A stretch of 64,000 nt of DNA from Croceivirga sp. (GTDB taxonomy: Bacteria > Bacteroidota > Bacteroidia > Flavobacteriales > Flavobacteriaceae): assembly GCA_028284665.1 (NCBI GenBank), contig JANQRG010000037.1, forward strand, positions 101,810 to 165,809, read 5' to 3'. The number at the start of each line of letters is the position of its first letter. Position 1 is the stretch's first letter. A model generated the notes under the pieces. It did no database searches. It saw only the letters and a program-made list of their open reading frames with translations, and had not been told where the DNA came from. The position numbers were made by a program, and so were the translations under genes. Of the stretch, positions 36,131 to 40,125 are shown piece by piece.

Positions 36131-36283
36131 ATTAAGTTACTGTAAAGGAATTGCAAAATAGGAAATGCAGCCTATATCTTAAAATGGATTTAGCAAAATA
36201 TTAGGGGAATTTTTAATAATCCACCATTATTTTGATGCATAGAAATAGCCAAACGACGTAGAATAACCAAGCTTGAACAACCT

Positions 36284-36309
36284 GCTCCGCAGTAGTTGTA
36301 CTGCTGCGG
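36284..36309. repeat. REP-like hairpin, left copy flanking RAYT
   Basis: gctccgcagtagttgtactgctgcgg; arms ccgcagtag/ctgctgcgg with loop ttgta; exact reverse complement of 36991-37016. Confidence 0.9.
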
Positions 36310-36317
36310 AAACCTCA

Positions 36318-36893
36318 TTATGTTATCGTTTTCATCATTTGTGGCAATACCATAACCTCTGGTAAAATTGATTCCTCTTCCAAATAATTCGATGCTGAAG
36401 AATACAACCAGTGCTCGGGCTTTACCACAAAATTTTCAACCACGGGATTGTTGTGAATATAACGTATCTTATCCCACAAGAACTTTTCAGTGTACAGTTC
36501 AATAGCATGGTTGCCTGTTTTCCAAAATTTGAACGCCGTACTTTTTGAACTGTTATCTGCGGCATTTTTGAATATGGAAACCAAGTTTTCCCTTCTGGAC
36601 TCTGGCTCTTTTATTATTTGGTTCAATACCGTTCTTGCGGAATGTCTCTTGAAATCCCTTATGGTATCGCTCAATTGAAAAGGTTCCTCGCAATTGGCAA
36701 TTAAATGGATATGATTGGTCATAAGACAATAGGCATACACATTTAGTCCCTTATTTTCAATACAATACCTCAATGACGCTATTATGGCCTGTTTATGATT
36801 CTTTCTTGTAAAAACGTCTGCCCAATCTACCACAGTCAAAGTCATATAGTAAGAACCATTTGTCTTTATCGTATGTTTTACGCCTTGTTGCAT
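36318..36893 (-). mobile_element. REP-associated tyrosine transposase (RAYT, Y1_Tnp/IS200-like)
   Basis: AYCLMTNHIHLIA (HUH), YIHNNPVVENFVVKPEHWLYSSASNYL. Confidence 0.9.
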
Positions 36894-36990
36894 ACCTTAA
36901 TTTAATAAAATTATGCCGCAGGGAGAGAACTAAACGGCCATAGCAAGCACTGTGGCCCTCAACATTCTTTATTTACTGCTACTATTTGTG

Positions 36991-37016
36991 CCGCAGCAGT
37001 ACAACTACTGCGGAGC
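36991..37016. repeat. REP-like hairpin, right copy flanking RAYT (inverted)
   Basis: ccgcagcagtacaactactgcggagc; exact 26-bp inverted copy of 36284-36309. Confidence 0.9.
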
Positions 37017-37128
37017 TGGCCAAAAAAGCTTTAGGGTATAAGCCTAAAGTACTCAGCTGTGCTTAGTGTGCTGCCTTATCCTATAAGGTGTTTTGCCCAT
37101 GGTACATTATAAAAGTTTTCCATTTAAA

Positions 37129-37665: not shown

Positions 37666-38124
37666 ATGCGTATTATGAAAAAAAATAGTAAGAAAATATT
37701 TATAGAGATAATATACGGTTTATATATTTTATTATTTACCTATGCCGCTGTTAGTAAATTACTCGATTATCAGCAGTTTAACGTACAACTTGGTAAGTCC
37801 CCCGTTTTAGCAGCGTACGCAGATATAATCGTATGGGCGGTCCCTTTTGTGGAAATCGTCATTTCCCTGATGCTGCTCTTTACACGTCTTAGGCTAATCG
37901 GGCTTTTTGCTTCCTTTTTCCTTATGGTCATGTTTACGGCCTATATCATGGTCATTTTGAACTTTAGTGATTATGTGCCCTGTTCCTGTGGTGGTATTTT
38001 GGAAGAATTGGGCTGGACAGAGCATCTCATTTTTAACAGTGTATTTATTGCCCTAGCCTTTATAGGGATACTACTACTAAATGAGGAAAAAAATCCAACC
38101 GAACAAAAATATGTAACTGCATAA
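37666..38124 (+). CDS. MauE/DoxX-like redox-associated membrane protein
   Basis: 4 TM segments; YAAVSKLLDYQQFNVQLGKSPVL, VPCSCGGILEELGWTEHLIFN. Confidence 0.8.
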   Translation: MRIMKKNSKKIFIEIIYGLYILLFTYAAVSKLLDYQQFNVQLGKSPVLAAYADIIVWAVPFVEIVISLMLLFTRLRLIGLFASFFLMVMFTAYIMVILNFSDYVPCSCGGILEELGWTEHLIFNSVFIALAFIGILLLNEEKNPTEQKYVTA

Positions 38125-38141
38125 ACTATAATCAGCAACAG

Positions 38142-39251
38142 ATGACAAATAAAAAGATCTATATCATCCTTTTGTTAGGCTCCATGTTCTGTATTGGATT
38201 GGTTACGGTATTATTTGCCCTTTCGGAAAAGACCATACACCATGAGAACCCATTTATACGGCGTGTCCCTCCCCATACGATTGCCAAAACGCATGATCTG
38301 GACCTTGGTTATAACTCCTATTATATCGCCGGGGTGGACAAGGACAGGATATTTTTGGGAAACCATTCGTCTCCCCTGCATGTATTGGTGCTGGACTCCA
38401 CCTTAAAGGACACCTCTCATATCCAATTACATGTGGACCGCAAGGACCTTCCGGTCTATTCCATGCAAGTACGGGTAGCACCACCCTATTTCTATATCAT
38501 GGACGGCAGGTCTCCCTTCGTCTTTAGGGGAAAGACCACGGATTGGAAAGCTTCGCTCCTTATGTACCAAGGGGCCTATTTTTCATCTGCTGAACCTGTG
38601 GATTCCAGCACCATGATCATTCGGACGAGGAGCAGTATCTCCAAGGAAGATGTACTGGGCAGGATCTCCATGGGGGATTCCGTGCAGGTAGACCTGTCCC
38701 ACAAGCTGCTACAAAAGCAGATCGATGGGATATTCTGCGTGGATGGAAAACTGTTGTTGGCAAAAGAACTACAAAAACTGGTGTATGTCTATACCTATAG
38801 GAACCAATTTGTTGTGGCCAATACCCATCTGGAACAGGAATTTATCGGTAAGACCATCGATACCATAAGCAGGGCACGGATCGAGCTGGCTTCGATAGAT
38901 TCAAAAAATGCGACCACTTTGGCCTCCCGGCCCCTGGTAGTGAACAAACAATGCAGTACCTACGGCAATTATCTCTTTGTAAGCTCAAACCTGTTGGGAA
39001 GATATGATCCTTCAGATATGTTGAACCATGCCGCTATCATCGATGTATACGACCTCAAAAAGAATACTTATGAATTTAGTTTTTATCTCTATGACCACCT
39101 TCAAAAGCGGATGACCGGCTTTCAGGTGCAGGGCGATCGATTGATAGCGTTAATGGAAAAGTACATAGTGTCCTATACCCTAAGACCGGATTACTTTGAG
39201 AAGGGGGAAAACCCCGTGGTGGCAACCTATCCCAAGGTAAACTTAAAATAG
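38142..39251 (+). CDS. Hypothetical membrane-anchored protein, possibly beta-propeller
   Basis: Single N-terminal TM then long soluble domain; 17 bp downstream of MauE-like gene. Confidence 0.7.
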   Translation: MTNKKIYIILLLGSMFCIGLVTVLFALSEKTIHHENPFIRRVPPHTIAKTHDLDLGYNSYYIAGVDKDRIFLGNHSSPLHVLVLDSTLKDTSHIQLHVDRKDLPVYSMQVRVAPPYFYIMDGRSPFVFRGKTTDWKASLLMYQGAYFSSAEPVDSSTMIIRTRSSISKEDVLGRISMGDSVQVDLSHKLLQKQIDGIFCVDGKLLLAKELQKLVYVYTYRNQFVVANTHLEQEFIGKTIDTISRARIELASIDSKNATTLASRPLVVNKQCSTYGNYLFVSSNLLGRYDPSDMLNHAAIIDVYDLKKNTYEFSFYLYDHLQKRMTGFQVQGDRLIALMEKYIVSYTLRPDYFEKGENPVVATYPKVNLK

Positions 39252-39328
39252 ACAGGGGTAAACACCCCGGGTAGAAAAAGAAAATTATAATAAAATACTG
39301 GATCAGTGCCAGGGGTAAGACCGAAAAC

Positions 39329-39354
39329 CTGTAAAAAAGAGTAGGTCAATTAAT
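39329..39354 (+). repeat. Leader direct repeat, copy 1 (upstream of 4-Cys peptide gene)
   Basis: ctgtaaaaaagagtaggtcaattaat; 25/26 identical to 39862-39887. Confidence 0.85.
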
Positions 39355-39378
39355 TAACAACATAATAAATAGATTATC

Positions 39379-39633
39379 ATGAAAAAACTAATTCCCGTTT
39401 TTGCAATGGCCCTGGCCGTATTAGCAGCTTTTGCCTTTACTACCAATGGTGATTCCGAAGAGGTCTCTCAATTAGGTGTTTATGACTCTAATTCTAATGG
39501 CATTTGCAATATACCATATGACTGTGGACCAGTGGGACCGGATTTTTGTTTCGTCAAAGGTGTGACGCCAATTACACCGGTGTTTGAGAAAACAGATTGC
39601 GCCGTTCAGCTTAGAACGGTGCTGTATGATTAA
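39379..39633 (+). CDS. Small exported 4-Cys protein (DUF6520-like)
   Basis: MKKLIPVFAMALAVLAAFAFTTNGDSEE signal; GICNIPYDCGPVGPDFCFVKG...KTDCAV; 84 aa. Confidence 0.75.
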   Translation: MKKLIPVFAMALAVLAAFAFTTNGDSEEVSQLGVYDSNSNGICNIPYDCGPVGPDFCFVKGVTPITPVFEKTDCAVQLRTVLYD

Positions 39634-39660
39634 AGTTCAGAAGTAATAATAGTTAGTAGA

Positions 39661-39700
39661 AGGTGCCCCCTGTAAAAGGGGGCATTTTCTGTTGGCACCT
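39661..39700 (+). terminator. Hairpin terminator after 4-Cys peptide gene
   Basis: tgccccc-tgtaaaa... gggggca followed by ttttct; additional outer arms aggtgcc/ggcacct. Confidence 0.75.
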
Positions 39701-39726: not shown

Positions 39727-39850
39727 GGATCCTCCTCTTCAGAGAAGAGGGGCGGTTTCACCGAAGGTGAGATTAGGAAGTTTTGATATCACTTTCAAAA
39801 CCCTCCGTCCTACTTCGTAGGCCACCTCCCTTTGACTAAAGGGAGGAGTC
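39727..39850. repeat. Multi-hairpin intergenic repeat cluster
   Basis: cctcttcagagaagagg, cctacttcgtagg, cctcccttt...aaagggagg nested hairpins. Confidence 0.6.
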
Positions 39851-39861
39851 AGATCAAAAAG

Positions 39862-39887
39862 CTGTAAAAAAGAGTAGGTTAATTAAT
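39862..39887 (+). repeat. Leader direct repeat, copy 2 (no ORF downstream)
   Basis: ctgtaaaaaagagtaggttaattaat; 25/26 match with 39329-39354. Confidence 0.85.
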
Positions 39888-39890
39888 AAT

Positions 39891-40039
39891 TGAATGTCCG
39901 TTTTTTGTCATAACATCGTTTTTTCGTCATGCTGAACTTGTTTCAGCATCTCATAACAGCTGTAAATCAATATTTTATGATGAGACCCTGAAATTAATTT
40001 AGGGTGACGCTTAATTTTATGAATGATTACGGACATTCA
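39891..40039. mobile_element. MITE-like element with 10-bp terminal inverted repeats
   Basis: tgaatgtccg ... cggacattca ends; internal atgctgaa-cttg-ttcagcat and accct...agggt hairpins. Confidence 0.6.
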
Positions 40040-40125
40040 AATGATACAATAACACACTCCCACAACCCCTGTATTTACTTTGATTGCTAATAAAAAACAA
40101 TAGTAATACTATCATTAATGAAAAT

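Follow-up and report, generated by a model that had tools for sequence, protein, structure and literature searches.

The mau cluster, which carries MauE and MauD, also codes for a propeller protein, the large subunit. In methylamine dehydrogenase, MauE has been linked to the formation of disulfides (as cited in PMC7794033). The same paper has mauE outside methylamine metabolism, next to small peptides predicted to be precursors, in decRiPPter candidate clusters of Streptomyces. Bufferin (DUF2282) clusters place a small Cys peptide with a Sec signal beside a membrane protein of the DoxX superfamily (PMC12452194). Here, we describe a module in which DUF6520 peptides, an unnamed propeller family, MauE proteins of non-methylotrophs and an orphan DUF805b RNA are joined at one SusCD locus. 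Literature searches, which left most subscription journals outside, returned no paper with DUF6520 or NVEALA and none joining DUF805 to an RNA motif, and within that scope the module as a whole seems not to have been described.

The window is a stretch of 64,000 nucleotides from Croceivirga sp. (GenBank assembly GCA_028284665.1, contig JANQRG010000037.1, positions 101,810 to 165,809), and the features of the unit within it are as follows.

37666..38124, + strand: MauE-family four-helix membrane protein with a CxC pair (PCSCGG), 152 aa, VPCSCGG (PF07291)
38142..39251, + strand: 369-aa predicted inner-membrane-anchored beta-propeller, here called the ectodomain (N-terminal hydrophobic helix; alignment; model of a fused homologue)
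39310..39347, + strand: DUF805b-like pseudoknot RNA, leader of the peptide mRNA, P1 CAGG/CCTG and P2 GACC/GGTC (RF02914; covariation)
39379..39633, + strand: 84-aa DUF6520 peptide with a signal-like N-terminus and four Cys (PF20130)
39657..39691, + strand: terminator-like hairpin at the end of the unit, 15 bp, -25.6 kcal/mol, z -4.3 (also in a pattern scan)
39841..39883, + strand: orphan duplicate of the leader RNA, without a peptide (covariance model, 27.1 bits, E 0.036; 44-nt direct repeat, 86%)

A preliminary description of this DNA, made from its letters, had proposed a cassette of three genes on one strand, with 17 bp between the first two and a hairpin terminator at the end, and all of this was confirmed. 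The first gene, read there as MauE-like, far exceeds the PF07291 cut-off of 27 (115.8 bits, E 2e-33) and stays below that of the DoxX profile PF07681 (15.8 bits, cut-off 23.6); its second Met (37675) may be the start, since relatives open with 'MK'. The 369-aa ectodomain has zero family matches in Pfam or NCBIfam. The claimed DUF6520-like peptide passes PF20130 (32.4 bits, cut-off 25.4) and has, as described, exactly four Cys, each beyond the signal-like N-terminus. That first reading had neither the SusC–SusD–peptidase partner nor the RNA element, and it overlooked that the genome has a second copy and that the one in the window is reduced. The window copy is flanked by an acyl-CoA ligase gene on one side and pfl on the other. 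A gene for a REP-associated tyrosine transposase (36318–36893; NF047646, over cut-off) lies inside 29-nt inverted repeats that are 97% complementary (window 36281–37019), and just behind the orphan RNA copy the window holds a MITE-like, imperfect 27-nt inverted repeat (TTGAATGTCCG...CGGACATTCAA, 78%) with 97 nt spacing (39890–40040).

A scan seeded with the ectodomain, over one genome per GTDB species, yielded 21 loci, mostly from Flavobacteriaceae and one from a Cytophagales MAG. In all 21, MauE is fused to the ectodomain or encoded just upstream of it and at least one DUF6520-type peptide is present, with up to five in tandem per locus. To offset this choice of seed, each part was also searched for on its own in a sample of 297 Bacteroidota genomes. 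The ectodomain was found at 29 places in 22 genomes, with MauE fused or adjacent at 28 and a contig end at the odd one. DUF6520 exceeded its cut-off at 25 places in 18 genomes, and 20 of these have an ectodomain within 2 kb, where chance would give 0.04 in the same genomes. Three of the remaining five (two in G274, one in G194) adjoin a MauE of the same type with the propeller absent, and the other two matches, in G296 and G252, appear to be false or limited to the N-terminus. Six MauE–peptide loci were found to lack the propeller. The homologues are nearly always neighbours, a check that the preliminary description had itself proposed, and the unit is conserved far beyond chance. No plasmid-borne relatives of the ectodomain were found. 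In distant members of the phylum (L110:5763–7842, minus strand; L109:1–1852) a different small Cys peptide, with 4 or 6 Cys, is followed by a propeller and a MauE gene, which suggests that peptide, propeller and MauE are associated more widely.

The conservation of the peptide cysteines, also raised as a check, is complete: all four are present in 55/55 distinct four-Cys peptides, and the C2–C3 spacing is always 7 or 8. Mean identity is 20% over the remaining mature positions, compared with 42% in the signal region; signal peptides are of low complexity, and part of this gap is to be expected for that reason. Every member of the family carries a Sec-type signal sequence and is predicted to be exported, and many peptides share a similar tail of the type L-[YFW]-[RK]-P/Q. 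The predicted peptide structure (pLDDT 58) is too weak for interpretation. Peptide relatives with two Cys occur in other families, likewise beside MauE; several have a spacing that fits C1–C2 and C2–C3 equally well, and the deduction of a disulfide pairing from them was dropped for that reason.

The P-C-x-C motif of MauE is invariant across 21 aligned homologues. In Flavobacterium-type genomes and a related family, MauE and the ectodomain form a single polypeptide of about 495–530 aa and, because they are one polypeptide in many genomes, the MauE-family protein and the membrane-anchored propeller can be taken to act as one unit. The model of the fusion from F. johnsoniae CI04 (mean pLDDT 91) consists of the MauE helix bundle, a fifth long helix that corresponds to the anchor of the separate ectodomain protein, and approximately 24 strands. 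Its PDB matches are propellers, with a Bacteroides DUF4221 protein as the best, followed by NHL and WD40 domains; searches by sequence returned no PDB relatives for MauE or the ectodomain. Read from this model of a fused homologue, the window ectodomain is predicted to be a beta-propeller. The distant homologue in L109 passes the profile of the six-bladed DUF5128 propeller (PF17170; 28.1, cut-off 22.9) and is alone in doing so, the window protein having no match. The propeller has no conserved Cys in the ectodomain alignment and is therefore not itself a thiol oxidase.

SusCD pairs import large ligands across the outer membrane. Clustering of the neighbours of all fetched loci placed SusD in 46 loci, SusC in 43, an S9 prolyl-oligopeptidase in 33, an AraC-type regulator in 17 and a DUF4953/DUF5117 met-zincin in 8. 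SusD lies downstream and convergent in 41/41, with a median identity in S9-type loci of 52%, compared with 44% for the ectodomain and 35% for the peptidase; with this constant orientation and an identity above that of both, SusD appears to be a dedicated partner. In two-Cys loci the third place is held by a TlpA-type thioredoxin instead of the peptidase. The complete loci can be described, at the level of sequence, as a dedicated SusC–SusD pair with a peptidase, or with a TlpA thioredoxin, facing the peptide unit. The locus maps contain no exporter gene and no type 9 secretion C-terminal domain. Mobilisation genes adjoin ten loci. Matches to PADLOC and bacteriocin families were absent, and a role in anti-phage defence was rejected on the zero PADLOC matches. 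An AraC/HAMP-type regulator, a DUF7793 protein and an aminotransferase–GNAT fusion recur jointly beside complete loci (L012:13323–18720; homologous flanks in 12 loci).

Comparison of the stretches upstream of the peptides revealed a strongly conserved leader, CAGG-n-AAGAYCGAAAACCTG-n-AAAAGAGTAGRTC, approximately 30 nt ahead of the start codon and compatible with an H-type pseudoknot. P2 occurs as GATC/GATC, GACC/GGTC, GACT/AGTC and GCC/GGC; each of its four pairs has changes in both partners, and 97.4% of cells are paired, compared with only 12–39% for the whole structure in slid controls. Rfam gave zero matches in the window at the gathering threshold, and DUF805b (RF02914) surfaced in a relaxed search alone, with 22.8 bits (E 6e-5) for the window leader, below the gathering cut-off of 35.6, which five orthologous leaders exceed (L126, L133, L063, L105 and L132). 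The leaders have the features of the DUF805b clan, namely a pseudoknot with conserved GAAAA and AAAAGAGTA and a covarying P2. In the window's genome the covariance model recovered the two cassettes described below and the orphan copy, with no further credible match. Its matches to its own training loci are by construction, and it also exposed a new MauE–peptide–TlpA–SusCD locus, in G091, that was absent from its building set. Within the phylum sample, the leader RNA also stands ahead of other exported proteins and one lysin-like gene: in L185, L186, L188, L191 and L192 a DUF805b-type RNA precedes tandem 152-aa Cys-rich exported proteins, exported proteins of 215–248 aa and the lysin-like gene. 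The conserved letters and the pseudoknot layout are shared with DUF805b RNA (RF02914, clan CL00115), which differs in having GCC/GGC as P2, whereas the leaders have four pairs, GACC/GGTC or GATC/GATC, and are tied to DUF6520 peptides. As a class, the leader RNA is accordingly not new, and its tie to DUF6520 peptides is the addition. A short palindrome of the ACYGGCCRGT type lies ahead of the RNA element in most flavobacterial loci (for example, window 39296–39308) and is possibly an operator.

A second cassette in the same genome, on contig C28, was found by whole-genome search and has the order peptide, MauE, ectodomain, peptide, peptide. Its ectodomain is 50% identical to that of the window, and these two places hold the only credible ectodomain homologues in the genome. 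The locus map has no SusCD, peptidase, TlpA-type thioredoxin or regulator near the window copy, which is therefore a paralogue, in reduced form, of the complete locus on C28. It retains one peptide and the presumed maturation genes, and would depend on the C28 locus for SusCD and the peptidase; the orphan RNA copy is likely the trace of a lost tandem peptide gene. The missing neighbours, the orphan RNA without a peptide, and the repeats and transposase gene around the copy would also suit a decaying relic, with the C28 copy alone functional, but the three window ORFs are intact and keep the invariant residues of the family, as are the window RNA and terminator, and we consider decay quite unlikely. 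Between SusCD and the S9 peptidase, the same genome also encodes a 162-aa protein (L012:5859–6344, and also in L027) with a CxxxxC-like motif and no Pfam match, which by eye resembles a thiol-exchange domain.

We favour a reading, to which we assign an even chance, in which the peptide, once exported by Sec, is oxidised by the MauE–propeller protein and, thus matured, acts together with SusCD and the peptidase. Sec would carry the peptide into the periplasm, where the CxC pair of MauE would accept electrons from the peptide thiols for transfer to the respiratory chain, and two disulfides would form in the peptide. The matured, fast-diverging peptide would work at the outer membrane alongside the SusCD–peptidase set, and the leader RNA would separate expression of the peptide from that of MauE–propeller. 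Redox maturation is favoured by the gene adjacency, the fusions, the invariant MauE CxC, the four invariant peptide Cys, the convergent SusD, the pairing of TlpA with two-Cys peptides and the RNA covariation. Against it, the propeller lacks any conserved Cys and six MauE–peptide loci do not have it, and for these reasons its role, which would be to hold or present the peptide, is a guess. The preliminary description had suggested an oxidation/display relay; its redox part gains from the MauE CxC, the MauE–propeller fusion and the TlpA-type thioredoxins of two-Cys loci, whereas nothing specific was found for display. A further point against the favoured reading is that a conserved SusD together with a variable peptide speaks against tight recognition between the two.

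The peptide could instead be a periplasmic or outer-membrane subunit of a SusCD–peptidase complex, with MauE–propeller as its folding factor only and with no release. This is rather unlikely in our view: the dedicated, conserved and always convergent SusCD, the shared peptide tail and locus maps free of exporters and type 9 domains agree with it, but strong divergence of the mature sequence save for the Cys and up to five tandem copies would be unusual in a fixed subunit, and SusCD is missing next to the window copy. Rapid divergence, tandem copies and fixed Cys would fit a bioactive peptide (antagonist, signal or metal carrier) that exits the cell once oxidised and is recaptured or destroyed by SusCD and the peptidase. 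The separate RNA leader, the mobilisation genes by ten loci and the parallel with bufferin clusters, where Cys peptides exported by Sec go with DoxX-type proteins (PMC12452194), point the same way; the loci nevertheless contain no immunity gene covarying with the peptide, no outer-membrane exit route and no PADLOC or bacteriocin family matches, and we find this explanation likewise doubtful. A full release-and-recapture loop, in which Sec-exported mini-proteins with two disulfides, oxidised by MauE–propeller and controlled by DUF805b, would be released as variable peptides and then recognised, imported and cleaved by a cognate SusCD–peptidase set, again as signal, antagonist or metal carrier, is unlikely. 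Finally, MauE might send electrons outward, the peptide being a thiol carrier to the TlpA or peptidase branch, where cargo rich in disulfides and imported by SusCD would be handled. The TlpA-type thioredoxin in the peptidase's place would fit, but known MauE is associated with disulfide formation and not reduction (as cited in PMC7794033), and a carrier would not need such rapid divergence, which leaves this reading very unlikely.

If the redox model that we favour is true, the module would provide a defined substrate for MauE proteins of non-methylotrophs. Flavobacterium johnsoniae is a genetically tractable carrier of the fused form and, since the parts are joined in one SusCD locus, they can be tested jointly there. 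Among known systems, the mau cluster likewise has a MauE-family membrane protein that would act on a small Cys-containing periplasmic protein. Here, however, the locus maps show no other mau genes, the propeller is membrane-anchored and fused to MauE, and the peptide is unrelated to MauA; MauA (PF02975) has nothing over cut-off in the genome (best E 0.44), and maturation of methylamine dehydrogenase was rejected on its absence. Bufferin clusters share the small Sec-signal peptide with conserved Cys and the DoxX-superfamily membrane protein alongside, but here the membrane protein is MauE and not DoxX, SusCD and a peptidase are present and the peptide families are others. The MNIO enzyme (PF05114) has zero matches in the genome at E 10, and a bufferin cluster was rejected on this ground. 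Each of the two systems has a defining feature that was looked for here and found absent, which sets the module apart from both. The decRiPPter clusters also have MauE adjoining small peptides outside methylamine metabolism, in another phylum and with other peptides, whereas here no peptide-modifying enzyme is seen and the propeller fusion and SusCD are present. In one Bacteroides-type genome (G238; L144 and L146) an NVEALA peptide is followed by a propeller-like lipoprotein of approximately 350 aa in at least five tandem pairs. Such NVEALA/DUF5128-like pairs resemble the module in the small exported Cys peptide, the propeller directly after it and the tandem arrangement; they differ in their lipoprotein-like propeller, in having no MauE in those stretches and in a peptide from another family, and profile comparison of the ectodomain with these propellers gives weak, local similarity. 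The parts of the module are named families of other or unassigned function, and its relatives in kind are the bufferin and mau clusters.
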